DNA of 64,000 bases, taken from the NCBI GenBank assembly GCA_951828515.1, contig OX639992.1:4752217-4816216 (forward strand), written 5' to 3'. This stretch comes from an uncultured Poribacteria bacterium (GTDB lineage Bacteria > Poribacteria > WGA-4E > WGA-3G). This document shows positions 4,903 to 51,493 of this stretch, piece after piece (positions within the stretch are counted from its first letter, which is position 1; each line of letters opens with the position of its first letter). The notes below the pieces were generated by a model. It saw only the letters and a list, made by a program, of their open reading frames with translations. It was not told where the DNA came from and searched no databases. The translations under genes were made by a program, and so were the position numbers.

Positions 4903-4931
4903 TTGCTAAATTCCACCTATGATAGTATAAT
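4903..4931 (+). promoter_or_regulatory. Sigma-70-like promoter for the CPBP gene
   Basis: TTGCTA (4903-4908), a 17-bp spacer, then a perfect TATAAT (4926-4931), 31 nt before the ATG at 4963. It sits in the divergent gap with the GT9 operon. Confidence 0.6.
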
Positions 4932-4962
4932 ACCGTAAAATCTACGGGATGTCAAGATCAAG

Positions 4963-5697: not shown

Positions 5698-5705
5698 ACG
5701 TTTCG

Positions 5706-5734
5706 TTGCGAATACTCGGCAGCTGTGCTATAAT
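5706..5734 (+). promoter_or_regulatory. Strong extended -10 promoter of the PIN-type toxin-antitoxin pair
   Basis: TTGCGA (5706-5711), 17-bp spacer, TATAAT (5729-5734) with a TG dinucleotide at 5726-5727 (extended -10). It lies about 65 nt before the start of the antitoxin-like gene. Confidence 0.65.
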
Positions 5735-5799
5735 GTATCCATGATGCTTCAGGGTTGGAAGTCCCGATAAAAACATACGATTACTGATAGGAGAAAATC

Positions 5800-6165: not shown

Positions 6166-6673
6166 TAAAGTTACAGCACGCCATATTGTGGAAGGCATGC
6201 TGAAGCTTGGGGAGGGACGATCGGTGACCTCCGCTGATCTTTTTGCACTCTACTTCTACCAGCGTGCCCACTCCAGTAACATTACGTTGTTCATTCTTCC
6301 TCAGACTTATAACTTGTTAAAGCGTCTAAACCATTTATCACGTTATGTTGTGATCATCCGCCGTTTCTTGGCAGCAACGCAAGTTTCCTACCCCGCGCGA
6401 TACTTCAAACGGTGGGCAAGACGGTTACAAGATTACGGTTTCACAAAAGAAGATGCGGAAGTACTTGCGTTAGCGACATTTGGAACAACTCCGAATGGAG
6501 ACATTTTGGGCATGCACATAGTGGCAACATTGGATCAACCGATGATCAACCAATGGAGGGCGTACCACAGCGAAATCCAAAAGCGATTGTCGAATATGCA
6601 GCGGAACCTTGCAGATCCCTATTGTCATGTATCTTTACCCACTGTTGAACGCCCAGAACTTATTGGAATTTAA
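6149..6673 (+). CDS. PIN-like ribonuclease toxin
   Basis: A 174-residue protein with PIN-domain-like acidic residues: Asp6 in CLLDKVTARH, Glu101/Asp102/Glu104 in TKEDAEVLAL, and Asp129 in IVATLDQPM. PIN domains bind divalent metal through such residues and cleave RNA. It overlaps the probable antitoxin. The toxin assignment rests on this acidic pattern plus the pair architecture. Translation probably depends on coupling, since no strong separate ribosome site is seen. Confidence 0.7.
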   Translation: MRCLLDKVTARHIVEGMLKLGEGRSVTSADLFALYFYQRAHSSNITLFILPQTYNLLKRLNHLSRYVVIIRRFLAATQVSYPARYFKRWARRLQDYGFTKEDAEVLALATFGTTPNGDILGMHIVATLDQPMINQWRAYHSEIQKRLSNMQRNLADPYCHVSLPTVERPELIGI

Positions 6674-6690
6674 GGTGAAAAGAGCTCATA

Positions 6691-7350
6691 ATGGACAACA
6701 TTACCAAAATTGTAAATGACTTCGGCGAAAGCATTGTTCGAGTAGATGGCGATATTCCTGTTGACTTGCCAGCGAAGGATGGCGACAGGTTTTTGTTCAT
6801 TAGTCACGATCAGAGTTTTCTAACGCATGGCTTGCACAAGTACCCTGCCAAGTTTTTTCCCGAGTTACCGCGTTGGCTTATTAAACGATATTCTCAAGAA
6901 AACGACCAGATTCTTGATCCATTCGCGGGTAGCGGCACCACAAACGTTGAAGCACTTCTCTTAAAGCGCCACTCTGTTGGAATTGATGTCGATCCTTTTT
7001 CCCGCTTCATTTCAAAAGTGAAGGTAACGCCTTTGACGGAGAAAGAACTCAAATTAGCCCAAAAAGTCCTTTTGGAAGCCATTTCTCACTACCGACCCTC
7101 ACAGGTTGCCCAATGCGATTTACCAGACTTCCCTTATAGAGACAATTGGTTCAATAAAGAAATCCTTTTGGAACTTACCTACTTAAAGAAGCGAATCCAC
7201 GAACTTGATTCCGATGAGGTAGTTAAAGATTTCTTCAAAGTCTGTCTATCCTCTATCATCCGCTCTGTTTCTAACGCTGATAACAATTGCACCCGAACGG
7301 TAATCCGGAAGAAATTGAACAGGACGAACAAACTGCTATTGACTGGTTGA
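6691..7350 (+). pseudogene. C-terminally truncated DNA N6/N4-methyltransferase
   Basis: The 219-residue frame keeps the N-terminal half of an N6_N4_Mtase: THGLHKYPAKFFPELP (about 45-60) and the SAM-binding motif I DPFAGSGTTNVEA (76-88) followed by GIDVDPFS. It then stops soon after SNADNNCTRTVIRKK. The catalytic (D/N/S)PP(Y/W) motif IV and the rest of the domain are absent. A second frame opens at 7284 and reads 31 codons to a stop near 7380 (PEEIEQDEQTAIDWLKS), possibly the tail of the original or a neighbouring gene after a deletion or frameshift. It is probably inactive, a relic between two toxin-antitoxin pairs. Confidence 0.7.
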
Positions 7351-7426
7351 AGTCTGTTTCGCAAGTGACAGATGTTTAGAGTGTCTCATAAATACAATGA
7401 TTCTATGATTTAGCCAATCGCAGTGC

Positions 7427-7744
7427 TCAAGTACAATTGGGGTAACCCGTATTTTTCAGACGACGCTTAAGCGCGTTCAATAGGGTTTGGAACGTATCTA
7501 ATCGCGGGGCATCTTTGTTAGAGAGCATATTTAAAAGCGTTTCGGTATCAATACCAGTGCGTTCGGAAAGTTCGGAAACTCCACCTTGTGATTCTACAAA
7601 AGTCCGGATGCCCTTTAGAAAGAAGGGCAGATCCCCATCAGCGAGGTATTCTTCCAATGTCAACTGAAGATAATCAATCGCTGCCTCTTGGTCAGTGGCA
7701 AGGTATCCAATAAAGTACTCGTTCCAGTTCCCCATCTCTCTCAT
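7427..7744 (-). CDS. HigA-like addiction-module antitoxin (HI1420 type, HTH)
   Basis: A 105-residue antitoxin of the type found beside phage-Gp49/HigB-like toxins. The C-terminal half carries a helix-turn-helix pattern (GGVSELSERTGIDTETLLNMLS, read in part) and the family tail FQTLLNALKRRL. It should neutralise the toxin and autorepress the operon. ATG overlaps the toxin stop by 4 nt and is preceded by AAGGAGG at 7 nt, a strong site that would favour antitoxin synthesis. Confidence 0.88.
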   Translation of the reverse strand: MREMGNWNEYFIGYLATDQEAAIDYLQLTLEEYLADGDLPFFLKGIRTFVESQGGVSELSERTGIDTETLLNMLSNKDAPRLDTFQTLLNALKRRLKNTGYPNCT

Positions 7745-8106
7745 CGGGATGCCTCCTTATATTCCATCAAATATGATTTCGCAATTTCAATATCCCGCTG
7801 TTGTGATGTCTTATTCCCCCCACAAAGTAGGAGAATAATTCTGTTACCGATTTGACCGAAATACATACGATATCCAGGTCCGAAGTGAAAACGCAATTCA
7901 AAGACACCACCCCCCACAGATTTGCAATTACCAAAATTGCCATTTTCAAGCCGTTTAAGTTGTTGGCCAATTCTGTTTCGCGTATTTCTATCTCGGATGG
8001 ATTCAAACCATTCAATGAAAGGTTGTCTACCGTTTGGACCGCGGTAGTATTGTATTTCTATTGGTTGTCCGTCCCTATTGACAATCGTTCCATACCTGCT
8101 ATGCAA
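7741..8106 (-). CDS. RelE/HigB-like toxin (HI1419, phage Gp49 family)
   Basis: A 121-residue toxin. PFIEWFESIRDRNTRNRIGQQL, ELRFHFGPGYRMYFGQ and LLLCGGNKTSQQRDIEIAK (read in part) are diagnostic of the addiction-module killer family, a RelE-fold mRNA interferase acting at the ribosome. Toxin-first order is typical of HigBA. The longest frame starts at a TTG (8106) without a clear ribosome site; the family usually begins near IEIQYYRG, so the true start may be some 15 codons further in. Confidence 0.88.
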   Translation of the reverse strand: MHSRYGTIVNRDGQPIEIQYYRGPNGRQPFIEWFESIRDRNTRNRIGQQLKRLENGNFGNCKSVGGGVFELRFHFGPGYRMYFGQIGNRIILLLCGGNKTSQQRDIEIAKSYLMEYKEASR

Positions 8107-8134
8107 TGATAAATAAACGGTTTGTTGATTGGTA

Positions 8135-8164
8135 ATTATACTTCATTTCCTATGAAAAACGCAA
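8135..8164 (-). promoter_or_regulatory. Promoter of the HigBA-like operon
   Basis: On the minus strand: TTGCGT (8164-8159), 18-bp spacer, TATAAT (8140-8135), just upstream of the toxin start. Confidence 0.55.
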
Positions 8165-8203
8165 GGTATATTTGCAATTTCGGAATTGCTCAGATAATTG
8201 CAG

Positions 8204-8232
8204 TTGACATGCACAGGGTATTCCTATAAAAT
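8204..8232 (+). promoter_or_regulatory. Promoter of acsA
   Basis: Perfect TTGACA (8204-8209), 17-bp spacer, TAAAAT (8227-8232), about 72 nt before the acsA ATG. Confidence 0.65.
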
Positions 8233-8304
8233 ATGTTCAATACAACTTGCAGAGCGTTCTAAGCGCGTGTTCCAGATTGATCATAGAGGAGATGATGATA
8301 TAAT

Positions 8305-10248
8305 ATGGCTAACAATGTTTTTCCACCAGCAGAAACTGCTTATCCCATAGAGAATGCTCACGTCAACAGTTTAGAAACATATCATGCACAATACGCCGAA
8401 TCGATTCAAGATCCCGAAGCATTTTGGGCAACAATCGCGGAACGATTGACGTGGTCTCAGAAATGGGATACGGTTCGTGATTACGATTTCATTAACGGGG
8501 AAATTAAATGGTTCGATGGCGGCACACTGAACGCTTGCTATAATTGCCTCGATCGGCATATAGAAGCCGGGCACGGCGATGCAACCGCCATTATCTGGGA
8601 AGGGAACGATCCCTCCGAAGATAAAACCTTCAGTTACACTGAACTCCTCGCTGAGGTCAAAAAATTTGCCAATGTCCTGAAGGCACAAGGTGTTGAAAAA
8701 GGCGATCGCGTCTGTATCTACTTACAGATGGTTCCAGAGTTGGCAATCGCTATGTTAGCGTGTGCGAGGATTGGTGCTGTCCATTCTATCGTCTTCGGCG
8801 CATTTTCAGCGGAATCCCTCCGAGACAGGATTAATGACTCGGCATGTAAACTGCTAATTACGCAGGACACCGCAATGCGGGGTCCCCGTAGTGATATACC
8901 GATGAAGGTAAACGCCGATGCCGCTGTTGCGGAATGTCCATCTATTGAAAAAGTCGTCGTCGTGGAGCGCACTGGGGATGCAGTCGATTTTGATGCGTCG
9001 CGAGATATATGGTGGCATGAAGCGATGGCAGATGCCGATGCCGAATGTGAACCAGTAGTTATGAATGCTGAAGACCCGCTTTTTATCCTATATACCTCCG
9101 GCTCGACAGGCAAACCGAAAGGCGTTTTGCATACGACAGGCGGTTATCTCGTCTACACGTCTTACACACATCAACAGGTTTTTGACTACCACGAAGGCGA
9201 TGTCTACTGGTGCACAGCCGACATAGGTTGGATTACTGGGCATTCTTATATTATCTACGGTCCACTTGCGAATCGTGCGATTAGTGTGATGTTTGAAGGT
9301 GTGCCAAATTACCCGGACTTCGGACGCTTTTGGCAGGTCGTTGAGAAGCACGACATTAATATCTTCTACACTGCCCCGACAGCACTACGCGCACTGATGA
9401 AAGAAGGCAATACATGGGTCGAAAAGTACGACAGATCCACGCTCAGACTACTCGGTACGGTCGGTGAACCCATCAAAGAACCAGAGTGGCTCTGGTACTA
9501 CAATATAGTCGGTGAGGAACGGTGTCCAATCATAGATACATGGTGGCAAACCGAAACCGGTGGGATTCTGATGACACCACTGCCCGCCGCAACACCACTG
9601 AAACCCGGCTCGGCAACATTTCCGTTCTTCGGAATTGAACCGGTGATTCTTGATGAAGGTGGGAACGAAGTGGAAGGGAACCCAGCAACCGGTTATCTCT
9701 GTATTAAAACAGCGTGGCCCGGCATTATGCGAACCATCTACGGTGACCATGAACGGTTTTTGGACACCTATTTCCGCCGGTTTCCCGGCTACTACATGAC
9801 AGGCGATGGGGTCTTACGCGATGAAGACGGTTATTATTGGATTACAGGACGCGTGGACGATGTTCTGAACGTCTCTGGACACCGATTGGGAACAGCAGAG
9901 GTCGAAGGCGCAATCGGGCAACACGAAGCGGTGGCGGAAGCCGCTGTCGTCGGTTATCCACACGACATCAAGGGACAAGGCATCTACGCGTATGTTACGC
10001 TCATGACTGGCGAATCCATGTCTGATACGGTGGAAACAGGTATCAAACAGGCAGTCCGACAGCACATCGGACCTATCGCTACGCCTGATAAGATTCAGTT
10101 TACCCCCGCACTGCCAAAGACAAGATCCGGTAAGATTATGCGACGTATCCTCCGCAAAATCGCGGAAGGCGACATTACCGACCTCGGGGACACCTCCACC
10201 CTCGCTGATCCAACAGTGGTTGACGCTTTGGTTGAAGGCAGACGATAG
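8305..10248 (+). CDS. acsA: Acetyl-CoA synthetase
   Basis: A 647-residue AMP-forming acetate:CoA ligase, the usual family length (about 650). Acetate + ATP gives acetyl-AMP, then acetyl-CoA. Seen: the P-loop-like [12 protein letters not shown] (about 265-276), the core [26 protein letters not shown], and the C-terminal [11 protein letters not shown] with Lys610, the residue acetylated by Pat in well-studied homologues. AGAGGAG lies 13 nt before the ATG. It is followed after 20 nt by a ThDP-enzyme subunit, so an operon is likely. Confidence 0.97.
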
Positions 10249-10268
10249 AAATAAGGAAAAACTGAAAA

Positions 10269-10763
10269 TTGGCATCAGCACAGAAGATAGTAAATGAATT
10301 AAAAAAACAGGAGATCACCCACGCTGTTGGCGTCCCAGATAACGGCAGTGCCCGAATTTATGAACTCTTACGGTCAGAGCCTGATATCGATGTTATCACG
10401 GTCACCCGCGAGGGAGAAGCATTTGCCATTGCAGCAGGGTTGTACGTTGGTGGCAAAAAACCTGTTATCATCATCCAAAATACCGGATTCTTGGAATCAG
10501 GCGATGCCATCCGAGGCACCGTTGTTAACATGCAGGTCCCAGTAGTGGTACTTATTGGATATCGGGGATACCACAACCGAGATACCAATGGACGATGGAT
10601 CGACTCTGTAGCGACTTTCCTTGAACCGACGTTGAAAGCGTGGAATCTCCCTTATGAGATGCTCGAAACAGATTCGGATGTTCCCTGCATCACGAGAGCA
10701 TTTGAAGAAGCCTCAGAGACTTCACTACCAACAGCGGTGCTTTTAATCGGACATTCTACATAG
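10269..10763 (+). CDS. Single-domain thiamine-pyrophosphate PYR subunit (sulfo-/phosphonopyruvate decarboxylase alpha-like)
   Basis: A 164-residue protein matching the PYR (N-terminal) domain of ThDP enzymes, like ComD or the alpha half of phosphonopyruvate decarboxylase: HAVGVPDNGSARIYELL, then TREGEAFAIAAGLYVGGK with the activating Glu of such domains, and NTGFLESGDAIRG. It starts with TTG, preceded by AAGGA at 11 nt; no in-frame ATG fits. An active enzyme needs a PP-domain partner (beta subunit), and none is encoded in this window. Linkage to acsA hints at acetaldehyde/acetate-type or sulfonate/phosphonate metabolism, which is inference. Confidence 0.8.
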   Translation: MASAQKIVNELKKQEITHAVGVPDNGSARIYELLRSEPDIDVITVTREGEAFAIAAGLYVGGKKPVIIIQNTGFLESGDAIRGTVVNMQVPVVVLIGYRGYHNRDTNGRWIDSVATFLEPTLKAWNLPYEMLETDSDVPCITRAFEEASETSLPTAVLLIGHST

Positions 10764-39062: not shown

Positions 39063-42000
39063 ATGCACGAAACACCTCTTAAAATGGACATTCAGCGCGG
39101 ACTCAGCGACTTCACGGACGGACAACTCGCGGAGAACGCGATGCAACTCCTGAAAGTGTTAGGATACGAAAGTCAACGCACGCTCAGTCGTCCCGATAAT
39201 ACCGTCAAGGCATTCCTTGAAGACTTTGACACGCACAGACGGATGAACCGAGAGAACACACTACTCCATGAATGGCAGACTGTAGACTTCCTCTTCCAAC
39301 TCACGGCTGATGAAATCAGACAGCATACACAAGAAACCATAATCTTCCATGAAAACCGAGGCGTTGATGAGACCCTCTATTATTCCTATCTCTTTCTCGC
39401 CATCAAACTCAAGGCGGATACCTATTCCCGCACGGCACTCGCCACTATCACGCGAGAGATTAACAAACTCTATACAATGCCCGCACTGCTGATTTTCCAG
39501 CATGGACAAACGCTCACTTTCGCTATTATCAACCGTAGACCGAGTCAGCGCGACGGCGACCGAGATGTCCTTGAAAAAGTGACACTCATCAAGGATATTG
39601 ATGTTGTGAATCCGCACCGTGCACACCTTGACATCTTGGCAGAATTGTCGCTGGATGCCTTGTATGAAAAATACGAATTCAGCAATTTTCTCGAGTTACA
39701 TCAGGCGTGGCAAAAGACACTGGACACCTCCGAACTCAACAGACGCTTCTTCAAAGAGATTGCCGATTGGTATTTCTGGGCAGTTGGAAAAGTGGCGTTT
39801 CCACCCGATGCCGGGAACAACGAAACCGTCCGAAATGCTACGTGCGTTATCCGTCTAATAACACGCCTCATCTTCGTCTGGTTTCTCAAGGAGAAAGACC
39901 TCGTGTCGAACACCCTCTTTGACGAAGACGACATTGCAAAGCTGCTTACGACCCTTGATCCACAGGAAAGCACCTATTACAAGGCGATCCTCCAGAACCT
40001 ATTCTTCGCAACATTGAATCAGGAAATGAACACGCCTGAAAGACCAAACACCCGCAAATTTCGAGGCGAGGGGCGACAGCACTATAATATCACATCGCTC
40101 TATCGCTACAAACGTTATTTCAGAGATCCTGACGCAGCACTTCGCTTGTTTGAGACGATTCCGTTTCTCAACGGAGGCTTGTTTGAATGCCTCGACAAAC
40201 CCGCTCCAGAATCTGTAGGAGCGAGTTCCAACTCGCGACCGAATGAAAAAATCTTGCGTGTGGATGGCTTCTCTGACAGAGAGGATAACCCGCTTTCTGT
40301 CCCAAACGAGCTCTTCTTCTCCGAACCGCAAGCCGTAAATCTCAACGCCGTCTACGACACAAAAAACAGCCGGTATACCGTTCGGGGTTTAATCCACATC
40401 CTCAATCGCTACAAGTTCACGATTGCTGAGAACACACCGATAGAACAAGAGGTCGCCCTGGATCCAGAGTTGCTCGGTCAGGTATTTGAGAATCTACTCG
40501 CCGCGTATAATCCTGAAACCGGCACGACTGCGCGTAAACAGACGGGGTCGTTCTACACACCCCGTGAGATTGTCAACTACATGGTAGACGAATCCCTCAT
40601 CACCCATCTGAAGGAAAGTAGCAGGCACAATCCCTTGTGCCGTAGCATTGGTACTGATGCGGCAACTGAAGCCAAACTCCGTCACCTCCTCGCCTACAAC
40701 GACGAACCCCATCAATTCACCGATGCCGAAGTGGAACATCTCATTAACGCCATAGACACACTGAAGATCCTCGATCCCGCGTGCGGTTCCGGTGCCTTCC
40801 CGATGGGGATCCTCCACAAACTCGTCTTTTTGCTCGGTAAACTCGATCCCCGCAACGCCCAGTGGCGGCAACGCCAGATTGACAGAGTCGAAAAGACCAT
40901 CGCGACAGCAGAAAAGATTGACGACAGCGTTATCCGCGAAAGCACGATTGACGAATTAGAAGGCGAAATTGAGAGTATTAACGAGGCATTTGAACGCAAC
41001 GCACTCGACTACGGCAGAAAACTTTACCTGATAGAGAACTGCATCTATGGGGTAGACATCCAACCGATTGCGACACAGATCGCTAAACTCCGATTCTTCA
41101 TCTCTTTGATCGTGGAGCAAAGAATCGACAACGCGCGTGAAAATCGAGGTGTGCGTCCGTTGCCGAACCTTGAGACGAAGTTCGTCGCGGCGAATACACT
41201 CCTCGATGTGGAGAAACCCGCGCAACTCCTCCTCCGCAACCCGGAGGTAGACCACAAAGAGAAGGCGTTAGAAGAGGTCCGCCGTAGGCACTTCACTGCC
41301 AGAACCCCGCGCACCAAAGACCGGTATCGCAACCGCGACACGGAACTTCGCGCCGAGATTAGCGCGTTGCTGCAGTCGGACGGGTTTCCGAGTGAGACGA
41401 CCGAGAAGATCGCCAATTGGGATCCATACAACCAAAACGCCACTGCAGACTTCTTTGACCCCGAATGGATGTTCGGCATCACAGACGGATTTGATGTCGT
41501 AATTGGCAATCCGCCTTATGTCCGTCAAGAGAAAATCAAGGATCTCAAACCCGAATTGAAAAAACGATACACCTGTTACACGGGGGCAGCAGACCTTTAC
41601 GTCTATTTCTATGAACGCGGGCTTCAACTGCTCAACGCAAACGGCACACATACCTTTATCTGTTCCAACAGTTGGCTGGATGTGAACTACGGTGCGCCGT
41701 TACAGAAGTATCTATTAGACAACACCGCGGGTGCCGTTATCTGCCACAGCGAGGCGGAACGAGAGTTTGAGAGTGCGGACATCAACACCATTGTCAGTAT
41801 TCTCCACAACGGGACTCCCGATGCGGATTCCCACATCCGTTTTCTTACCTTCAAGACATTCATAGGCGATCCAAACGTAGAAAACCGTCGCGAGCGAATG
41901 CCTACCTATCCTGAGTTAGCACAAGCGGGCATGCGCGATAACAGATACACCGGTGACAAGTGGGGCGGGAAGTATCTACGCGCCCCTGACATCTATTGGA

Positions 42001-42806
42001 CGATTTTAGAGAAAGGGAAGGATAAATTAGTACGTCTGGGAGAAATCGCAGGGGTGAGACGGGGCTTCACAACAGGTGCAAATGAGTTCTTCTATCTTAA
42101 CGCTGAGCAGATTCAGGCATGGGGCATTGAGGATGAATTTTTGAAGCCTGTCATCAAGAGTCCACGGGAATGCAAAAGCATCCGTGTGGATCCCAGTCAG
42201 TTACAGTTCAAGTTGTTTATGTGCCATGCCGACAGAGTTTCCTTGTCGGGCACATCAGTATTGGAATTCATTGAATGGGGTGAATCTCAGGGGTATCATC
42301 AGCGGCCGAGTTGCAGCGGACGGGCGCGCTGGTGGGATTTGGGGAAACGTCAAATTCCATCGCTCTCTTTTAACTATCTGATTTCCTCAACTGCCAGAAC
42401 CCTATATGCGCGAAACGGTTGTTATACCAGCGACAATTTTCAGGAAATCCACACGGATTCGGATTTGATATTACCTTTATGTGCCTCCTTGAATTCGTCA
42501 TTGTTTCAACTGATGGTAAATATAGCGGGACGTTCTAATTTCGGTGGTGGTTTACTGAAGATTCAGACCTATGAAATTTCGGAGTTGCTCTGCTTGGATC
42601 CAAAAACCTTTGTATTTGAGGATGCAGCGATTTTCACGTCATCTTCATGGGAGATACTTGAACCCTCAGATGACCGGCGCGCCCTTGACACGATTATCTT
42701 CGATGCCTTGGATCTCACGCAAGGCGAGCGGGAGGGTGTATATGAAGCGATTGTGAACCTTGTGGAGTCTCGACTGCGGAAGGCACGGAGTTTGAAGGGG
42801 AAATAG
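39063..42806 (+). CDS. Type IIG restriction-methyltransferase (Eco57I/TaqI-like)
   Basis: A 1247-residue single-chain enzyme. The N-terminal about 500 residues hold the region that in this family carries nuclease and helical linker. The amino-methyltransferase core has motif I LDPACGSGAFPMGIL (about 576-590), a DIQPIATQIAKLR region and catalytic motif IV VVIGNPPYVRQEK (about 814-826). The C-terminal about 250 residues form a target-recognition part. It should methylate adenine and cut DNA near its site. I could not mark a clear PD-(D/E)xK motif, so cleavage is unproven. An in-frame palindromic repeat lies at 40213-40242. It leads the accessory region with the FRG-TPR and ATPase genes. Confidence 0.88.
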   Translation: MHETPLKMDIQRGLSDFTDGQLAENAMQLLKVLGYESQRTLSRPDNTVKAFLEDFDTHRRMNRENTLLHEWQTVDFLFQLTADEIRQHTQETIIFHENRGVDETLYYSYLFLAIKLKADTYSRTALATITREINKLYTMPALLIFQHGQTLTFAIINRRPSQRDGDRDVLEKVTLIKDIDVVNPHRAHLDILAELSLDALYEKYEFSNFLELHQAWQKTLDTSELNRRFFKEIADWYFWAVGKVAFPPDAGNNETVRNATCVIRLITRLIFVWFLKEKDLVSNTLFDEDDIAKLLTTLDPQESTYYKAILQNLFFATLNQEMNTPERPNTRKFRGEGRQHYNITSLYRYKRYFRDPDAALRLFETIPFLNGGLFECLDKPAPESVGASSNSRPNEKILRVDGFSDREDNPLSVPNELFFSEPQAVNLNAVYDTKNSRYTVRGLIHILNRYKFTIAENTPIEQEVALDPELLGQVFENLLAAYNPETGTTARKQTGSFYTPREIVNYMVDESLITHLKESSRHNPLCRSIGTDAATEAKLRHLLAYNDEPHQFTDAEVEHLINAIDTLKILDPACGSGAFPMGILHKLVFLLGKLDPRNAQWRQRQIDRVEKTIATAEKIDDSVIRESTIDELEGEIESINEAFERNALDYGRKLYLIENCIYGVDIQPIATQIAKLRFFISLIVEQRIDNARENRGVRPLPNLETKFVAANTLLDVEKPAQLLLRNPEVDHKEKALEEVRRRHFTARTPRTKDRYRNRDTELRAEISALLQSDGFPSETTEKIANWDPYNQNATADFFDPEWMFGITDGFDVVIGNPPYVRQEKIKDLKPELKKRYTCYTGAADLYVYFYERGLQLLNANGTHTFICSNSWLDVNYGAPLQKYLLDNTAGAVICHSEAEREFESADINTIVSILHNGTPDADSHIRFLTFKTFIGDPNVENRRERMPTYPELAQAGMRDNRYTGDKWGGKYLRAPDIYWTILEKGKDKLVRLGEIAGVRRGFTTGANEFFYLNAEQIQAWGIEDEFLKPVIKSPRECKSIRVDPSQLQFKLFMCHADRVSLSGTSVLEFIEWGESQGYHQRPSCSGRARWWDLGKRQIPSLSFNYLISSTARTLYARNGCYTSDNFQEIHTDSDLILPLCASLNSSLFQLMVNIAGRSNFGGGLLKIQTYEISELLCLDPKTFVFEDAAIFTSSSWEILEPSDDRRALDTIIFDALDLTQGEREGVYEAIVNLVESRLRKARSLKGK
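40213..40242. repeat. REP-like palindrome inserted in frame in the type IIG gene
   Basis: CTGTAGGAGCGAG-TTCC-AACTCGCGACCGA; stem GCGAGTT/AACTCGC (40221-40227 and 40230-40236). It encodes SVGASSNSRPN. A sister copy with the same TGTAGGAGCGAG head is in the gap at 43005. Confidence 0.8.
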
Positions 42807-42821
42807 GTTAATAAAGTAGTA

Positions 42822-42838
42822 GGCACGCTCCGCGTGCC
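42822..42838. repeat. GGCACGC-TCC-GCGTGCC hairpin
   Basis: A 7-bp perfect stem with a 3-nt loop, then GTTTTAG. It starts 16 nt after the type IIG stop and could act as a weak terminator or as a REP element. Confidence 0.55.
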
Positions 42839-42846
42839 GTTTTAGA

Positions 42847-42921
42847 CTTCCGCTCCAGCGGAGCGATATGTCTATAGCCCGCGTGATATTTCCGATCTTC
42901 CGCTCCAGCGGAGCGGTATGT
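42847..42921. repeat. Two direct copies of a 25-bp REP-like unit
   Basis: Units at 42847-42871 and 42897-42921 differ by one base. Each holds CCGCTCC-AGC-GGAGCGR, a 6-7-bp hairpin. They are spaced 50 bp apart. Confidence 0.8.
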
Positions 42922-43004
42922 GACACATGCAATTAATTGGGTATCAGATATTCAGGAGCATTTAGTTTTACAGATTTATTTCATGTATGCGGATATTTTT
43001 CCAT

Positions 43005-43030
43005 TGTAGGAGCGAGCTGTGCTCGCGATT
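43005..43030. repeat. REP-like TGTAGGAGCGAG element
   Basis: TGTAGGAGCGAG followed by CTGTGCTCGCGA; stem GCGAGC/GCTCGC. Same family as 40213-40242. Confidence 0.7.
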
Positions 43031-43113
43031 TTGTGCTAAAACTTAACATCCGTTAGTGAAAACAGGAATCGGAACCGAAAACTAAATAGTCCTGATCAGA
43101 TATTCAAATTCGG

Positions 43114-43143
43114 TTGACATCTGTTTACCTTGCATGGTATCAT
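43114..43143 (+). promoter_or_regulatory. Promoter of the FRG-TPR gene
   Basis: TTGACA (43114-43119), 18 bp, TATCAT (43138-43143). The gene has GGAGGTG 4 nt before its ATG (43178). An own promoter means it need not be cotranscribed with the type IIG gene. Confidence 0.6.
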
Positions 43144-43177
43144 TACCTTCAAGTAGACCACATTGTGGAGGTGAAAA

Positions 43178-46100
43178 ATGAGCACACAACAAACCGAACT
43201 AAACAGGATTTTGGAGATAATCGGCAAGATTGTGAAAATCTCTACCGATGGTGATTACATTTATCGTGGCGAGCAGAAATGCTACGAGAAAGTATCCTCA
43301 AACCTCTGGCGTGAACTCAACAAACTCAACTTATTAGATCTTGATGTAGAAGAAGTCCAAAAAAGAGAATTGGACGAGGCTAAAAGGCACAACAACAAAA
43401 CAGACGAATTTGAGATTCTCGTCGAGCTCCAACACTTTGGTGGTAAAACCAATTTGATAGACTTCACGACTGATCCTTACATCGCCCTCTTCTTCGCCGC
43501 CAACGGTTCTTTCAGTAAGAACGGGCGAGTTATCTTGCAAAGCAAAACTGGGAAAATAAAAGACTGGATCAAGGAACTTAGGGATCCAGAGGCAGACAGT
43601 CGTCCGATAAGGCAAAAAAGCATATTCGTTCGATCGCCTGAGGGTTTTATTCCGGATGATGTTATTAAATCAGACGAAATCATTATCATCGAGAAAGATC
43701 TCAAACTGCCTCTATTGAAGTATCTCCAAAGGCCGGAAATTGGCATATCTGCCGAAACCATCTATCATGACATCCACGGTTTCATCAGGAGCCAGAGCAG
43801 CCATTGGAGTGCTTACTTGGAAGCTCATACAGGTGAAAAACTTCAAGATAGCGCGGATGAAATAAAGGAGCCTAAGAAAAGAGCTGCGCGTTATCAAAAG
43901 GCAGTGGATCATTTAACCGACGCTATGAACCTAATGCCTCCTTCTGCAGGAACTTATTACAATCGCGGACGCGCTTATTACCAATTAGGTGAGGTTGATC
44001 TCGCGATCCAAGACTATGACGAGGCAATAAAATTGCGACCACACTTTGCTGAAGCTTATGACAATCGAGGTCTTGCTTACGATAAAAAAGGCGAATTTAA
44101 TTTTGCAATCGAAAATTATAATACTGCGATAAGGCTTGATCCAGATAGGGCGGAAGCCTATAATAATCGCGGGAGTGCCTACGCTATGGAAAGCAACTAT
44201 GATCTGGCAATTGAGGACTATAACAAGGCTGTATCACTGAATCCGGATGTTGCAGAAATGTATTATAACCGTGGTAATGCTTACTTCAGCAAGGGTGAGG
44301 ATGACTTGGCGATCAGGAACTACAGCAAAGCGATAGAACTGAATCCGGATGATATTAACGCCTATTACAATCGCGGTTTTGCTTATCGTAGGAAAGGCGA
44401 GCATGACCTAGCTACCCAAGACTTTAACAAAGTAACACAACTGAATCCGGACCATGCTCGAGGCTATCACAACCTGGGATTGGCTCACGGTATCAAAGGG
44501 CAGTATGACCAAGCGATTCAAAATTTTACCAAAGCAATCGAATTGGATCCAGAGTTTGTCGAATCCTATTACAATCGCGGTTTTGCTTATCAGAACAAAG
44601 GCGAGACAAACCGAGCAATTGAGGACTATAATACAGCCACTCGAATCAAACCCAGTTATGCTGAGGCCTATGTTAAACGCGGTGTGGCTTACTTCAGCAA
44701 AGGTAAGGTTGATGACACTGTTAAAGACTTTGAAAGTGCAATAGCGTTGGAACCAGCGTTGGATCATGCTTATTACAATCTCGGGTTTGCTTATTTCACT
44801 CAAACTGAGTACTCCAAAGCGATTGATAATTTTGATGCAGCAATACAACGGAATTCCAATACAGCAAATGCCTATTACTATCGCGGTAATGCGTATGGGC
44901 TGAGAAAGGAATTTGACAAAGCCATTAAGAACTATACCGAGGCGATAAAACTGGCACCAAAGGAGGCTGAAATATACCGCGTCCGAGGGCTTGCTTATAG
45001 TATCTCACACGAGGTCAACAAAGCCATTGATGACTTTAATGAGGTGATAAAACTACAACCTGATAATGCCGAAGCATATAGAATTCGTGGGAGTGCCTTC
45101 GGTATGAAGGACGATTTTGAAAATGCTATTGAAGACTGTACCCATGCGATAAAACTACAACCTGATAATGCTGAATCATATAGTACTCTCGGACTTGCTT
45201 ATTACTCCAAAGACGATTTGGACAACGCTGTTGCTAACTTAAACGAGGCAATTCGCCTAAATCCAGATTATTCATTAGTTTATTACGCGCTTGGTGCTAT
45301 TTATAATCGTAAAGACGATTTGGACAACGCTATTGCTAACTTGAAAGAGGCAATTCGCCTTAACCCAGATTTTGCCTTAGCCTATTGCACTCTGGGCACC
45401 GTTTATAGAAACAAAAATGAAGTGGACCAAGCTATTGAAGCGTATAACAAGGTGATAGAACTTAAGCCCAAATTTGGCGAAGCATATTACTATCGGGGAG
45501 TTTCCTACTACTACAAAAATGATTTTGAAAATGCCATCAATGACCTTAGTGAGGCAATTCAACTAAAGTCTAATGTAGCAGAAGCATATCACTATCGCGG
45601 TCAAGCTTACTGTGTTAAATATGATTTTGATAAAGCGATTAATGACTTCAGCGTAGTAATCAAAATACAACCTAATAATGCCAGGGACTACAACATTCGG
45701 GGTGCAGCTTACATCCTCAAATATGATTTTGATAAAGCGATCAATGATTTTACCACGGCGATAAAGCTTGATCCAAATGCTACTAACTACCACAACCGAG
45801 GTATTGCTTATGGTAGAAAAGGTGAGATTGGTAGGGCCATCAGTGACTTTCGTATGGCAATAAAACTTAATCCTAATAATACCAACGCTTATAGTCATCG
45901 ACTGGGAGCCTATAGCATTGAAGGCGATTTTGACAAAGGCATTGCAGAACTTACCGAGGTAATAAAACGCAACCCTGACTTTGTTGATGCCTACCATGTC
46001 CGTGGTGTTACTTATCACGAAAATGGAGAAATCGATAATGCTATTGAGGATTATACCAAAGTAATACAGCTGAACCCGAGAGAGGCTGAGGCTTACTATT

Positions 46101-48154
46101 GCCGTGGCCTCGCTTATGGAAATAAAAACGAGATTGACAAGGTTATCAATGACTTCAGCAAATTAATAGAACTGAAGCCAGACCATGCCGCTGCCTATCA
46201 TAGACGTGGGCTGGCTTATTCCTATATAGGTGATTTTGACAACGCCATTAATGATTTTGATATGGAGATAAAACTCAATCCTGACGATGCGTATGCCTAT
46301 TGGGGGCGTGGACGCGCTTACACAGATAAAGATGAACTTGATAAGGCAATTGCGGACTATAGCACAGCACTTGAACTCAAACCAGATTTTGCCGAAGTCT
46401 ACTATGACCGCGGGCATGCTAAGGCCATTAAAGATAATTTTGCCGAAGCGATTGAGGACTTTACCAAGGCGACAGAACTAAAACCGGATGATGCTGATAT
46501 CTACTATCGCCGTGGGATTGCTTATCTGACTAAAAAGGATTTTGACAAGGCTATTGAAGATCTTAGTAGAGTAGTCGAGTTGGATCCAGAGCATGCAGGC
46601 ACATATTACTATCGTGGTCTTGCTTATCTCTTCAAGGGAAATTTTGACGATTTAGCTATTGAAAACCTCAATAAAGCAATAGAACAGAATTCAGACCATG
46701 CCGACGCGTATTACTATCGCGGTGCCGCTTACAACTTTAAAGGTGAAGTTGAACTTGCTATCAAAGACTATACAAAAGCGATAGAACTTAAACCCGATTA
46801 CGCCGATGCCTATTGCAATCGGGGGACAGTTTATTTCAGTAAAGACAAAGTAAAGCAGGCTATTGAAGACTATACAAAAGCAATAGCACTCAAATCTGAT
46901 TATGCCGATGTCTATTACAATCGCGCAGAAGCGTGGTTACACCTACAGGAATGGGAAAAAGCCAAAGCAGACTTCATCAGGGCTAAAGACAAAGGGGTGG
47001 ATATTGTCGCGGCATTTCGGAACGATTATAGAAATACTGCCGCTTTTGAGCAGAAACATAAGGTTAAATTGCCGAAAGACATCGTTGCACTCGTCCGACA
47101 AGGTTTTAGGCATCGCTACCCTATAGTGGAGAAAACCTTAACCCCCGATGGAAAGCCTCTTGAGTCGCCGGAAGTGTTGGATCTGTCGCAGAGGTTCCGA
47201 GACGCTGGCCCACCCTTGGGTGAGTATCTCAAGGTGCCCCCCTCTTTCGGTATTGAAACAGTCCCCACTGAAGTATTTGTAGTAGATAGGGCGAAGCGAG
47301 ATGAACTTATTGAAGAACACCCTTCATCCGCTGATATTTTAAAGCCGTTTTTGCAGGGGTCGGATATCAGACGTTGGCAGGTAGAATCCCAGGATCAGTG
47401 GTTAATCTTTACCCACCTCGGTATAGAGATTAAGGATTATCCCGCAATCCTGAAATATTTGGAAAAATACAAAGAACTTCTGAGCAAAAGAGGGAACGAA
47501 CAAGAATGGTATAAACTCCAAGCATCTCTTGACGAGGCAGAACGTTTCGCACAACCGAAACTGGTCTGTCCAAACCTCTATAACACGCAAACTTTCGCCG
47601 TCGAGACTGAGGGTCTTTACTGTGGATACACCTCCTACGTTATTCCGACCGCCGAAAAGTGGTTATGTGGTTTACTCAATACACTCCCTGTGGAATGGTT
47701 CTATTCGCAAGTGTCCAAACAGTTAGACGGGGGTAAACTTGAGGCACGCAGTGAGTATATCAAGCAGATTCCTGTCCCCGATATCAACGCAACACAGAAA
47801 GACTTGGTTCGCAAACTCGTTGATTACCTCATATACCTCCAGCAACAACCCACAACGAACAGCAAGGATTTGGCACATGCTCGCGACTTCATGGTACTCA
47901 AATATTTTGAGTGGATTGTCAATGGATTGGTTTACGAGTTTTATATGCCAGATCTGCTTCAGAGTGCCAACCGAGACATCTTCAAACATTTAATGGCAGA
48001 AGCGTTACCCGAGATAGATGAAATTCAAAGCGATAAAATGTCCTTTTTCCGTTCACTCTATGAACGCTTACATCACAGAGAACACCCAGTGCGCGTAAAT
48101 ACGTTTTTTCACGATGGTTTACGACCTATCCGTATCATTGAGGATAAATGGTGA
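43178..48154 (+). CDS. FRG domain + about 30 TPRs + TaqI-type target-recognition domain fusion
   Basis: A 1658-residue protein. Residues 1-235 are an FRG domain: YIYRGEQ (27-33; the (F/Y)RG motif) and LQHFGGKTNLIDFTTDPY (84-101) with IALFFAA. Residues about 257-1277 are roughly thirty 34-residue TPRs of consensus AEAYYNRGxAYxxKGExDxAI. Residues about 1385-1640 match the C-terminal specificity domain of TaqI/type IIG enzymes (ILKPFLQGSDIRRWQ, GYTSYVIPT, LLNTLPVEWFYSQVS, EYIKQIPVPD), with no methyltransferase in between. TPR domains bind proteins and the last domain normally reads DNA. FRG is frequent in defence-associated genes and its activity is unknown. Stop overlaps the ATPase start by 7 nt. 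Confidence 0.85.
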   Translation: MSTQQTELNRILEIIGKIVKISTDGDYIYRGEQKCYEKVSSNLWRELNKLNLLDLDVEEVQKRELDEAKRHNNKTDEFEILVELQHFGGKTNLIDFTTDPYIALFFAANGSFSKNGRVILQSKTGKIKDWIKELRDPEADSRPIRQKSIFVRSPEGFIPDDVIKSDEIIIIEKDLKLPLLKYLQRPEIGISAETIYHDIHGFIRSQSSHWSAYLEAHTGEKLQDSADEIKEPKKRAARYQKAVDHLTDAMNLMPPSAGTYYNRGRAYYQLGEVDLAIQDYDEAIKLRPHFAEAYDNRGLAYDKKGEFNFAIENYNTAIRLDPDRAEAYNNRGSAYAMESNYDLAIEDYNKAVSLNPDVAEMYYNRGNAYFSKGEDDLAIRNYSKAIELNPDDINAYYNRGFAYRRKGEHDLATQDFNKVTQLNPDHARGYHNLGLAHGIKGQYDQAIQNFTKAIELDPEFVESYYNRGFAYQNKGETNRAIEDYNTATRIKPSYAEAYVKRGVAYFSKGKVDDTVKDFESAIALEPALDHAYYNLGFAYFTQTEYSKAIDNFDAAIQRNSNTANAYYYRGNAYGLRKEFDKAIKNYTEAIKLAPKEAEIYRVRGLAYSISHEVNKAIDDFNEVIKLQPDNAEAYRIRGSAFGMKDDFENAIEDCTHAIKLQPDNAESYSTLGLAYYSKDDLDNAVANLNEAIRLNPDYSLVYYALGAIYNRKDDLDNAIANLKEAIRLNPDFALAYCTLGTVYRNKNEVDQAIEAYNKVIELKPKFGEAYYYRGVSYYYKNDFENAINDLSEAIQLKSNVAEAYHYRGQAYCVKYDFDKAINDFSVVIKIQPNNARDYNIRGAAYILKYDFDKAINDFTTAIKLDPNATNYHNRGIAYGRKGEIGRAISDFRMAIKLNPNNTNAYSHRLGAYSIEGDFDKGIAELTEVIKRNPDFVDAYHVRGVTYHENGEIDNAIEDYTKVIQLNPREAEAYYCRGLAYGNKNEIDKVINDFSKLIELKPDHAAAYHRRGLAYSYIGDFDNAINDFDMEIKLNPDDAYAYWGRGRAYTDKDELDKAIADYSTALELKPDFAEVYYDRGHAKAIKDNFAEAIEDFTKATELKPDDADIYYRRGIAYLTKKDFDKAIEDLSRVVELDPEHAGTYYYRGLAYLFKGNFDDLAIENLNKAIEQNSDHADAYYYRGAAYNFKGEVELAIKDYTKAIELKPDYADAYCNRGTVYFSKDKVKQAIEDYTKAIALKSDYADVYYNRAEAWLHLQEWEKAKADFIRAKDKGVDIVAAFRNDYRNTAAFEQKHKVKLPKDIVALVRQGFRHRYPIVEKTLTPDGKPLESPEVLDLSQRFRDAGPPLGEYLKVPPSFGIETVPTEVFVVDRAKRDELIEEHPSSADILKPFLQGSDIRRWQVESQDQWLIFTHLGIEIKDYPAILKYLEKYKELLSKRGNEQEWYKLQASLDEAERFAQPKLVCPNLYNTQTFAVETEGLYCGYTSYVIPTAEKWLCGLLNTLPVEWFYSQVSKQLDGGKLEARSEYIKQIPVPDINATQKDLVRKLVDYLIYLQQQPTTNSKDLAHARDFMVLKYFEWIVNGLVYEFYMPDLLQSANRDIFKHLMAEALPEIDEIQSDKMSFFRSLYERLHHREHPVRVNTFFHDGLRPIRIIEDKW
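43946..47008 (+). repeat. About thirty 102-bp coding repeats (TPR array)
   Basis: Thirty near-regular 34-codon units, with only two length deviations (33 codons near residue 869, 35 near 1141). Adjacent units share up to most positions (for example the two units with DDLDNA(V/I)ANL near 45220 and 45320), indicating recent tandem duplication. Confidence 0.9.
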
Positions 48155-49611
48155 AAATTACGAAAATTGAGATCAAAAACTTCAAAACTTTCCGAGGACC
48201 AGATCAGATTGACCTCGGTAACAAAGGGAGAAACCTGTTAATTTACGGTGAAAATGGAAGCGGCAAAACGTCTCTATATGAAGCCTTAAAGTTCTTCCTT
48301 GAATCCAGTGAAGGGACACACCAATTTGGGGATTATAGGAATATATTTTCAGATGAAACCGATAAAGGCTATATCAAACTTCACTTCACACCTGACCCAA
48401 GCTTAAATAAAGAAATGTATGAATGGTCCGAAAATATTCAGAACGACACCAAAATTAAACCGATGATTGATGCATCTAAAGCAAAAGGATTTCTTGATTA
48501 TAAAGATCTCTTGAAGACAAATTATCTTCATCACGGAAAAAATAGTGTGAATGTGTTTGATTTATTGATCAATACGCTCTTGAAAAATGTGGAGAACGAT
48601 CAAACCTTTCCCAGGACCAGTTTTTCTGAGCAGTGGATGAGCATTTCAGGCATTCTTTCTCCAGACGAAAACGCGGAACAACAAATTGAAAATCCAGAAG
48701 AACAATTAGAGCAGTTGCAGATTTTCAATAGCGGACTCGCTGCTAAGTTAGTAGACTTAGCGGCGGAAGCCTCTAAAATCCTCGGCAAATTTGGATATAA
48801 TATTGATTTTAAATTCGTTTTTCATGGAGTTAGGTATAACAGCCAGGAACAGAAACTTTATGATACAGAGATTCTCTTAACAGTTAAGTTCCTTGATGAA
48901 GATATACGTTCACATCACCGCTTTTTGAATGAAGCAAAATTATCAGCAATTGCCCTTTCAATCTTTTTCGCTGGGTTCAAGCTACAGCCAGACAGTGACC
49001 TGAAGATTCTTGTTATAGATGATGCTTTAATTGGCTTGGACCTATCAAATCGCTTACCTGTGCTTGATATTCTGGATGAAAGAGATTTCGCAAAATATCA
49101 GATCATTTTGATGACTTATGACCGGATATTTTATGAAATGGTCAAAAAGCGTAAATCCGAAGATAAAAAATGGAAAGCTGCTGAGCTCTACTGTGGAAAA
49201 GTTGATGGCTATGAAATACCAGTCTATGTGGAAGATAAAACATACCTTGAAAGAGCGAGGGAATATCTTGATGCAAATGACTACAAGGCTTGTGCAGTTT
49301 ACGTTCGTACTGCTTATGAAGCAATAATTAAAGGATACTGTGAGAAAAAGAACATTGGTGTTAAATATCGAGAGAATGTAAATGAGTTGGATAGTAATGA
49401 TTTTTGGACACTGATAAAAGATAAAAAAATACCAGATCCAAAAAGCAATAAACCAAAACGCCTTCTAAAGCTCGCTCTTGTTAAAAAGATAGAATTGGCT
49501 AGAAAATTTACTCTAAATCCACTAAGCCATGCTAACATTGTGAATATCCCCAGAAAAGAACTTGAAGATGCCATTGAAGCAGTCGAATGGCTTGAGGATG
49601 CGTTAGCATAG
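48148..49611 (+). CDS. RecF/SMC-like AAA ATPase with helical C-terminal domain
   Basis: A 487-residue ATPase. IEIKNFKTFRG opens it and Walker A GENGSGKTS spans 34-42. The signature-like LNEAKLSAIALSIF is followed by Walker B ILVIDDALIGLDLSNR (Asp291-Asp292). The usual catalytic Glu after the Walker B Asp is replaced by Asp. No long coiled coil separates the halves. Residues about 370-487 form a helical domain (YLDANDYKACAVYVRTAYEAIIKGYC; NPLSHANI) recalling HEPN-like folds, but the R-x8-H spacing (Arg452, His461) does not fit the RNase motif. The start overlaps the FRG-TPR stop, so the two are made together. Likely the power or switch subunit of that system. Confidence 0.85.
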   Translation: MVKITKIEIKNFKTFRGPDQIDLGNKGRNLLIYGENGSGKTSLYEALKFFLESSEGTHQFGDYRNIFSDETDKGYIKLHFTPDPSLNKEMYEWSENIQNDTKIKPMIDASKAKGFLDYKDLLKTNYLHHGKNSVNVFDLLINTLLKNVENDQTFPRTSFSEQWMSISGILSPDENAEQQIENPEEQLEQLQIFNSGLAAKLVDLAAEASKILGKFGYNIDFKFVFHGVRYNSQEQKLYDTEILLTVKFLDEDIRSHHRFLNEAKLSAIALSIFFAGFKLQPDSDLKILVIDDALIGLDLSNRLPVLDILDERDFAKYQIILMTYDRIFYEMVKKRKSEDKKWKAAELYCGKVDGYEIPVYVEDKTYLERAREYLDANDYKACAVYVRTAYEAIIKGYCEKKNIGVKYRENVNELDSNDFWTLIKDKKIPDPKSNKPKRLLKLALVKKIELARKFTLNPLSHANIVNIPRKELEDAIEAVEWLEDALA

Positions 49612-49694: not shown

Positions 49695-49732
49695 AGTGTA
49701 GAAAGCTTGCGTTGTCAAGGATAAACCCCTAT

Positions 49733-51493
49733 ATGAAAGAGGAAATTAGATCCGCATTGACACGCGGCACTGCGTGTTTACTTCAGCAACAGTGTAAAGA
49801 TGGAAACTTTGAGGGACAACTTTCCTCAAGTACCTTCCCTACCTGCGCGTACGCGTGGATTGAACTCGTCCGAGGTGAGACCCCAGATCCGTCTCTGATT
49901 GAATGGTTTATCGAAAATCAGAAGGAAGATGGCGGATGGGGATTAGATACCGCAAACATCTCAAATACAGAAGCGACCCGATTTGCTCACTTAATACTGG
50001 AGCAAACCCATCAACGTTCATCCGATCCGTCCCTCCAAAAACTGTTGGCATCCGTCCCGAAATCCGAGCCCCATCTCGCCTTAGTCAAATTGGCGTATGC
50101 CGCTTTTAATCAATTCGATTGGAACGAACTGACGCTCTCAGAAAATGCCCTACCTCTCATGAAACTCGCAAGGCAGTTGACGAAGATTCCGCTACTTGGC
50201 AGTCGATTGAAACCACCGAGACATCGCCTACCACCAGTTGCTCTTTTCAACACGCCCATGTTCGATGCCCTCTTCATTGCTGAGCAACATACACTCGTGC
50301 CTGTCTTCATCATGATTGAACTGAATACCGCAAGGCGTCCTGAAATGGTAAACTCCCTCGCGGCATGGTTGAAAACACACGTCCTTAGCGATGGGAGCTG
50401 GTTTCGAGTGAACTATATCACAGCCCTCTCTGTCTTGGCACTTATTGAACTCCAGGAAAAATGGGATGCCGATGAAGAGGTCACTGAACTTATCGAACGC
50501 GGCATAGGTTGGCTCCGGACGACGCGAAATCGTGACGGAGGATGCCGAGAGGCACTAAACCTGAATGTATGGGACACCGCGTTGAGCATTATCGCCCTAA
50601 CAGAGGTGTATGCTACACACAATGAATCCGGACAACACCCAAGCAAAAACATTCCTCCTACAGATGAACTTACAGATAAAGTGAGAAGTGCTGCACAGTG
50701 GCTCATCAACCATCAAAATGAAGACGGAGGATGGGCGTTTTCTGGATTAAGAGACAGCACGCTTCCAAGCGACGCTGATGATACTGCACTCGGAACACTC
50801 GCACTGATTCGCTCACTCCTTGTAGGTTCACCTATCGATCGAGAGGCATTAGAGGACTCAGTCCATCGTGGCATCACATGGTTAAAGACCCAACAGGTAC
50901 GTGATGGCAGTTGGAGCACATATCAACCCGGTCAAGGAGATGTTGGATGTGTGAGTATCACAGCACATGCAATTGAAGCACTTTTTGCTTTTGATGAGAG
51001 CGATATCCCTGATATACCGTATGTTCGCGAGGCGATGGTTGCTGGAATCTACTGGCTCCGCAAACAGATTAATCGAGATGGCTATTGGCGAGACCTCTGG
51101 TTAGCAAAAGATACGTATGGCACCGCCTGTGCTATAGCAGCGATGGTCAAGGTCGGACTCAAAAATGTTCCCGAAGTTCAGCGGGGTGTCGCATGGCTCG
51201 AACGCACGCAAAATGCCGATGGCGGATGGGGCGAAGATATGTTTGGGAATCCCACTGAAAGCACAGTGGAACAAACGGCTTGGAGTACCTATGCGCTCCT
51301 GCTGGCAAATCCCGAAAAATCCGCCGTTGAACAGGGCATAGCATTTCTACTCAAACACCAACGAGAAGACGGTTCATGGCACGAACAGTGCGTCGGTATC
51401 TATTGGGAAATTATCGGTGGCTATGCCGATCCGATTTACGCGTCCGTTTTTCCGATACTCGCCCTCAATCAACGATCACAAACAACTTCTTAG
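49733..51493 (+). CDS. Class II terpene (squalene-hopene-type) cyclase family protein
   Basis: A 586-residue alpha/alpha-barrel protein with repeated QW-like motifs (QKEDGGWGL, HQNEDGGWAF, QQVRDGSWS, QNADGGWGE, QREDGSWHE) and the catalytic acid motif DADDTA at about 347-352, the DxDDTA of squalene-hopene cyclases. That enzyme protonates a polyprene to give a polycyclic triterpene. The active-site surroundings differ from standard hopene cyclase, so the substrate is open. ATG 49733 with AAGGA at 11 nt is preferred over an earlier TTG. A glycosyltransferase gene follows after 8 nt. Confidence 0.85.
   Translation: MKEEIRSALTRGTACLLQQQCKDGNFEGQLSSSTFPTCAYAWIELVRGETPDPSLIEWFIENQKEDGGWGLDTANISNTEATRFAHLILEQTHQRSSDPSLQKLLASVPKSEPHLALVKLAYAAFNQFDWNELTLSENALPLMKLARQLTKIPLLGSRLKPPRHRLPPVALFNTPMFDALFIAEQHTLVPVFIMIELNTARRPEMVNSLAAWLKTHVLSDGSWFRVNYITALSVLALIELQEKWDADEEVTELIERGIGWLRTTRNRDGGCREALNLNVWDTALSIIALTEVYATHNESGQHPSKNIPPTDELTDKVRSAAQWLINHQNEDGGWAFSGLRDSTLPSDADDTALGTLALIRSLLVGSPIDREALEDSVHRGITWLKTQQVRDGSWSTYQPGQGDVGCVSITAHAIEALFAFDESDIPDIPYVREAMVAGIYWLRKQINRDGYWRDLWLAKDTYGTACAIAAMVKVGLKNVPEVQRGVAWLERTQNADGGWGEDMFGNPTESTVEQTAWSTYALLLANPEKSAVEQGIAFLLKHQREDGSWHEQCVGIYWEIIGGYADPIYASVFPILALNQRSQTTS

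Follow-up and report, generated by a model that had tools for sequence, protein, structure and literature searches.

In BREX-Related systems, a DUF499 ATPase is combined with an N6-methyltransferase and an SNF2 helicase with an HKD or PD-(D/E)XK nuclease (PMC12839542). Back-up killing that is coupled to a restriction system is known from PrrC and RloC (PMC3506569, PMC3710099), and FRG and TIR domains have both been placed among the defence enzymes that consume nicotinamide adenine dinucleotide (NAD+), the NADase role of FRG being a proposal (PMC9503650). Here, we describe a locus at positions 39063-49611 of a 64,000-nucleotide (nt) stretch, referred to as the window, from an uncultured Poribacteria bacterium (assembly GCA_951828515.1, contig OX639992.1, positions 4,752,217 to 4,816,216, forward strand). 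In this locus, a restriction enzyme appears, from sequence comparison, to have retained the end that reads DNA as well as its ATPase partner, and its methylating part to have given way to interchangeable heads that are predicted to kill the cell. The locus seems to be a modular anti-phage defence of a kind not yet described; we give a probability of roughly 55% to its being an effector-swapping abortive-infection module derived from restriction-modification. By analogy, it would work most like the restriction-coupled back-up killing of the PrrC kind, with NAD+-type heads.

The window belongs to a 5.85-Mb single-contig genome. A preliminary description, made from the letters alone, had proposed that an Eco57I/TaqI-type enzyme gene is followed by a 1658-residue protein joining an FRG domain, about thirty TPRs and a TaqI-type specificity domain without a methyltransferase, and then by an ATPase gene whose start overlaps by 7 nt. 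The three open reading frames (ORFs) on the + strand and the Pfam matches agree with this order, 30 TPR units were counted, and the sequence ATGGTGA at 48148-48154 contains both the stop of the fusion gene and the start of the ATPase gene. The features of these two genes are the following:

43178-48154, + strand: fusion protein of 1658 amino acids (aa), with FRG head, TPR arm, TaqI_C-type recognition domain and conserved tail (Pfam, homologues).
43253-43510, + strand: FRG domain, residues 26-111, a predicted NAD+-consuming effector head of the ADP-ribosyltransferase (ART) superfamily (Pfam 4e-13; PADLOC PDC-S15).
43946-47005, + strand: TPR arm, 30 diverged units of 34 aa, residues 257-1276 (Pfam over about 250-1276; unit count).
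47342-47776, + strand: TaqI_C-type DNA-recognition domain, residues 1389-1533 (Pfam TaqI_C 1.1e-12).
47777-48154, + strand: C-terminal tail, residues 1534-1658, a candidate ATPase dock (common to ATPase-partnered methyltransferases).
48148-49611, + strand: SMC/Rad50-like ATPase of 487 aa (Pfam SMC_N 1.1e-14, AAA_23; 7-nt overlap with the fusion gene).
48247-48270, + strand: Walker A motif GENGSGKT, ATPase residues 34-41 (GENGSGK conserved across 32 and 52 sequences).
49243-49608, + strand: HEPN-like C-terminal helical bundle, ATPase residues 366-487 (weak Pfam HEPN match, 0.0025; helices in the structural model).

The FRG head passed the cut-off of its family (PF08867, 50.5 bits against 25), and RGE, QHFGGKTNLIDFTTD and ALFFA are conserved among the FRG homologues. 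The TPR units show a mean identity of 39% among themselves; a recent tandem expansion or an assembly artefact was ruled out by this divergence and by the reading frame that relatives keep in many assemblies. No methyltransferase domain was found in the 1658-aa protein with Pfam, and the NPPY motif occurs in none of the effector-form proteins examined. Pfam, profiles and Foldseek all place in this protein a target-recognition domain of the type IIG kind. The TaqI_C match lies in a larger matched region (about residues 1285-1566), profile matches include M.BseCI (1.5e-24) and CamA (1.8e-23), and a Foldseek search with the AlphaFold2 (AF2) model of the recognition domain and tail (pLDDT 85.5, pTM 0.75) returned DNA-bound CamA and M.BseCI first, followed by MmeI, BpuSI and PglX. 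Among the homologues, matches extend into the final 80 residues of the query in the ATPase-partnered group and its relics, and stop near position 290 in the Eco57I enzymes of 1000-1300 aa. Since the tail marks the ATPase-partnered group, we propose that it may be the dock for the ATPase.

The AF2 model of the ATPase (pLDDT 90.5) matched SMC and Rad50 heads in Foldseek, evidence that bears on the SMC-type head and not on the HEPN-like part. The latter scored below the cut-offs in the window protein (HEPN, 18.4 bits against 22; DUF4145, 16.4 against 23.1), and weak DUF4145 matches were obtained for 10 of 21 members of the ATPase family; both families belong to the HEPN clan, CL0291 (PMC3710099). 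According to the alignments, R387, E391, N457 and H461 of the bundle are invariant across phyla. In the classical Rx4-6H motif the His is kept and the Arg is replaced by a hydrophobic residue, so an RNase activity of the bundle is uncertain.

Full-length relatives of the ATPase, with about 50-70% identity, were found in roughly 35-40 of the 85 genomes of the phylum that were searched. We compared the window with the fetched loci (L068-L119), a set with 52 proteins carrying the recognition domain or tail, and assigned the heads by Pfam for representatives and by hidden Markov models built from these loci. The preliminary description had raised the co-occurrence of the ATPase gene and of a type IIG gene beside the fusion. 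The first proved near-obligate: at 43 of the 52 loci its frame overlaps the recognition-domain gene, by 7 or 4 nt (a frame was counted if intact, if truncated only at a contig end, or if its start is closely similar), which rules out a chance neighbourhood of the two genes. In the remaining loci, the ATPase includes a frame-shifted copy (L089) and one cut off at a contig end (L118). The IIG-like gene did not follow the same pattern, as it lies upstream in only 13 of 52 loci, at its closest with gaps of 24 nt (L072) and 37 nt (L068), and it is thus an optional partner of the module.

The heads carried on the same chain in the 52 loci were TIR (24), FRG (6), HNH-like (4, a call below the Pfam cut-off), none (17) and a fragment (1). 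The six FRG-headed loci (the window, L071, L075, L080, L112 and L118) are homologues that keep FRG, TPRs and recognition domain together. The possibility that these parts are normally separate genes did not hold, because they are fused in most loci; FRG-TPR and TPR-recognition-domain genes are separate neighbours in L069, L076 and L113. The other doubt, that the three genes might never co-occur elsewhere, was not borne out either. In these three headless loci the neighbouring FRG-TPR gene provides a candidate effector, as does an abutting TIR-TPR gene in L107. A NERD-UvrD-type helicase gene lies directly 5' of headless TPR-recognition-domain genes in L098 (7388-9337), L105 (4570-6477) and L110 (5377-7050), an assignment made on the L098 protein itself and extended to the other two by sequence likeness; these helicases are possible effectors in trans. 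The exchange of heads is most direct between L070 (TIR) and L075 (FRG), with recognition domains 88% and ATPases 89% identical, and at a single chromosomal site, with FGE-sulfatase-type genes on one side and a nitroreductase gene on the other, which hosts L080, L093, L098, L105-L113 and L117-L119 with FRG, HNH, TIR or no head depending on the genome. The TIR heads keep a Glu-bearing motif, NCNKEL, and the number of TPRs varies from 1 to 32 between loci. FRG had been taken as a defining part of the module; from these comparisons, the constant core seems instead to be the recognition domain, the tail and the ATPase, with a head that is swapped or probably supplied by a neighbouring gene. A second recognition-domain and ATPase pair, with TPRs and no recognised head, was observed in the genome of the window (G000:C1:1045315-1047881; L084 7903-11891).

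A scan of one genome per species (84,980 species) revealed the ATPase in many phyla. Outside the Poribacteria-type group it usually follows an Eco57I-type methyltransferase that is complete (about 1100-1370 aa, with both NPPY and TaqI_C) and ends in the same tail, and the two genes typically overlap by 4 nt; in about 35 of these operons a PLD-SNF2 helicase (PADLOC 'HKD+Snf2') lies upstream. In the ATPase tree, the effector forms are set apart by a single branch (SH-aLRT 93) that adjoins L134, and at least five head changes occurred among 28 rows. When the long-branch rows were removed, the minimum was two changes between methyltransferase and effector forms, so a single origin is likely, not certain. 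Comparison of these sequences indicates that the two-gene core (recognition domain with tail, and ATPase) descends from operons with a complete Eco57I-type methyltransferase, and that in Poribacteria and their relatives everything upstream of the recognition domain was apparently replaced by a TPR arm and an exchangeable head.

The L134 operon (Latescibacteria) comprises a PLD-SNF2 helicase (279-3728), an Eco57I methyltransferase (4084-8004), the ATPase (8001-9428) and a TIR gene (9425-10636). Its last three genes overlap by 4 nt each, and it is the sister of the effector-type clade with the methyltransferase still present. A protein formed by the recognition domain alone, together with the ATPase, was observed in L259 (4988-7434, 338 aa, Nostoc plasmid pANSO36B) and L149 (6965-9449, 363 aa, Calothrix); neither has an upstream methyltransferase remnant or an effector head. 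L138 (Latescibacterota) and L141 (labelled Gemmatimonadetes) have common flanking genes and near-identical neighbourhoods, so one of these records may be misnamed or misbinned. No ATPase relative was found in 50,697 phage genome records; IMG/VR gave four matches, two of which (L200, L202) are of the methyltransferase form.

The first gene of the locus is separated from the fusion gene by 371 nt. The preliminary description had noted this gap and a separate promoter, and both were recovered, the latter as a promoter-like site:

39063-42806, + strand: Eco57I-type (type IIG-like) DNA methyltransferase of 1247 aa (Pfam Eco57I 3.3e-38; PADLOC REase_MTase_IIG 3.1e-74).
40773-40793, + strand: methyltransferase motif I, DPACGSG, residues 571-577 of the IIG-like protein (sequence).
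41508-41519, + strand: methyltransferase motif IV, NPPY, residues 816-819 of the IIG-like protein (sequence).
43114-43143, + strand: promoter-like site TTGACA-18-TATCAT, 11/12, 5' of the fusion gene (consensus match only).

The IIG-like protein also has a weak M_Eco57I_C match in Pfam and its own specificity domain at about residues 994-1178. DPACGSG and NPPY are kept across 71 aligned sequences, as in methyltransferases of type IIG; in the same alignment, an invariant E-x-K was not found in the first 480 residues.

It had been suggested that this gene may be only a neighbour, a view that we reject as a general statement. Of 16 IIG genes in six genomes that are complete or nearly so, 8 have an FRG or TIR gene 3-6 kb downstream of their start on the same strand, against 0.045 expected (P 4e-16, a value that takes loci as independent in genomes that are related), and despite this kinship the linkage of the family to FRG/TIR genes is large. 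Where the recognition-domain gene is absent, close IIG relatives still precede FRG-TPR, TIR-TPR or TPR genes (L204-L207, L211-L213, L215-L217), and so do distant subfamilies, among 40 loci, in L219, L228, L229, L231-L233, L235-L240, L242, L247, L249, L251 and L258. A PLD-SNF2 helicase lies upstream in other IIG subfamilies, and none was seen adjoining the subfamily of the window. Within the genome of the window, a second island (L219; G000:C1:5533232-5546353) contains, in series, a PLD-SNF2 helicase, an IIG-like methyltransferase, an FRG-TPR protein, a TIR protein and another FRG protein. In L252 (3142-4887) and L256 (2967-4685), a different ATPase family (572-581 aa) starts 5-11 nt past the IIG-like genes, and more conserved genes follow.

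This linkage bears on the idea that the effector guards a restriction system, as in PrrC/EcoPrrI: the IIG-like enzyme would silence the effector, and inhibition of the enzyme by a phage would release it. Such coupling has precedents (PMC3506569, PMC3710099), IIG-like genes precede FRG/TIR-TPR genes both where the recognition domain and ATPase are present and where they are absent, in L233, L236 and L247 with 4-nt overlaps, and in the methyltransferase-type operon L134 the TIR gene overlaps the ATPase gene. However, an enzyme encoded beside so few of the recognition-domain genes is not a general trigger, and the fusion gene of the window has its own promoter-like site; we consider a guard arrangement improbable as the explanation of the module.

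No description of this architecture was found in the open-access literature, in agreement with the initial view that it is unlike described systems, nor was a role described there for the ATPase family as a partner of Eco57I-type methyltransferases. With type IIG/Eco57I-type restriction-modification enzymes, the fusion protein shares the TaqI_C domain and the C-terminal tail of those enzymes that precede this ATPase in other phyla; it differs in having an FRG head and a TPR arm instead of the methyltransferase and the Eco57I-type N-terminal region, and in the near-obligate ATPase gene behind it. The ancestral-looking operons resemble BREX-Related systems in combining a PLD/HKD-SNF2 helicase, an adenine methyltransferase and an ATPase, but this ATPase is SMC/Rad50-like with a HEPN-like end, and the form of the module found in the window has neither the helicase nor the methyltransferase half. 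DUF499 systems were ruled out because the ATPase is not ORC/Cdc6-like by either sequence or fold. BREX was discarded as well: the IIG-like gene reached 64 bits against a PglX-class cut-off of 500, and profile scans of the three window genes identified neither PglZ nor BrxC among them.

PrrC/RloC (PMC3710099) have in common with this locus an SMC/Rad50-type ATPase head, a C-terminal HEPN-like bundle, a link to restriction-type genes and the logic of a back-up; here, in contrast, the HEPN assignment is weak, its catalytic Arg is missing, and a separate FRG, TIR or HNH head seems to be the effector. TIR/FRG defences that deplete NAD+ (e.g., Thoeris and DSR-type logic) share the predicted NAD+-consuming heads, which in our loci are joined through TPRs to a methyltransferase-type recognition domain; no ThsA or known phage-protein sensor domain was recognised. 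An SMC-like ATPase is also found in Lamassu, and LmuB was the best PADLOC match of the ATPase (1.1e-12). Lamassu was rejected because this match is limited to the P-loop region (residues 2-87) of a 487-aa protein without a long coiled coil; neither partner gene matched LmuA among the PADLOC matches listed.

From this architecture we infer a defence function and a trigger. In the preliminary description, the specificity domain would put the FRG effector on a DNA site, the TPRs would sense a phage or host protein and the ATPase would gate the response, a division of labour that is likewise hypothetical. The ATPase would bind the tail of the fusion protein, and the recognition domain would find its sequence on DNA, where an ATP-dependent, SMC-like dimer may test the state of the DNA (unmodified, replicating, broken or phage DNA). 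A signal passing through the TPR arm would then bring the FRG heads together; these would consume NAD+, and the infected cell would stop. Where present, the adjacent IIG-like enzyme may modify host DNA or provide the first defence, backed up by the FRG/TIR-TPR protein.

Several observations weigh against this abortive-infection reading. The ATPase was lost in four loci (L108, L113, L117 and L119) and is decayed or merged in three (L081, L106 and L116), the HEPN assignment of its end has the weakness described above, and no evident defence island was seen around the window genes, the other scanned neighbours resembling ordinary genes. Moreover, the recognition domain is 83-86% identical across species in the nearest group of the window, unlike typical specificity domains, and a homologue search of the window genome found no methyltransferase with a closely similar recognition domain, so the sparing of self DNA is unexplained. 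Given a constant domain and no similar methyltransferase, the protein may recognise a single fixed site or a state of the DNA, or may no longer read DNA.

This last option corresponds to a recognition domain that serves just as a dock for the ATPase; the TPRs or the ATPase would then sense a protein of the phage or the host as the trigger, in the manner of repeat-based protein sensors. A conservation far beyond that expected for a specificity domain would fit such a dock, as would the wide variation in TPR number, the missing cognate methyltransferase, and the cyanobacterial loci L259 and L149, where the recognition domain and ATPase stand alone. Against it, the full TaqI_C fold is kept and matches DNA-bound enzymes, and the recognition half is conserved too, not just the tail. 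We regard this alternative as rather unlikely, but as likelier than the other rivals of the abortive-infection reading.

A broader proposal is that the locus may stand for a class of immunity of its own. A restriction specificity domain that has no methyltransferase and is worked by an SMC-like ATPase would turn the recognition of a DNA sequence or of its modification state into NAD+ depletion (by FRG or TIR) or into nuclease action, depending on which exchangeable head the TPR arm carries; we advance this proposal tentatively and hold it somewhat less probable than its negation. If the module works as proposed, it would document how a restriction enzyme became an innate immune receptor, its DNA reader and ATPase staying while the acting part is exchanged for NADase-type or nuclease heads, and restriction-modification and abortive infection would be connected by one evolutionary step that can be traced. 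It would also provide TIR/FRG effectors with a DNA-sequence trigger, none having been described to our knowledge, and the natural head-swap variants would be a modular set for biochemistry. The analysis adds, in addition, a widespread ATPase family that is a partner of Eco57I-type methyltransferases in many phyla.

Poribacteria are sponge symbionts. The genomes studied here are rich in TIR, FRG and TPR genes, as they would be if TIR/FRG-TPR proteins served symbiosis or regulation instead of defence. Two features fit conflict systems much better, namely the co-inheritance of a DNA-type ATPase with a recognition domain derived from restriction enzymes, and the swaps among NADase- and nuclease-type heads, and we find a non-defence role very hard to credit.

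Regarding the comparisons above, ORF starts were set mechanically and several of the assemblies are fragmented. Two further elements of the window were observed. A 25-bp palindrome-bearing repeat (CTTCCGCTCCAGCGGAGCG..) is present in two intergenic copies, 42847-42871 and 42897-42921, in the gap between the IIG-like and fusion genes. Downstream, a squalene-hopene-cyclase-like gene (49712-51493) starts 100 nt past the ATPase gene on the same strand.

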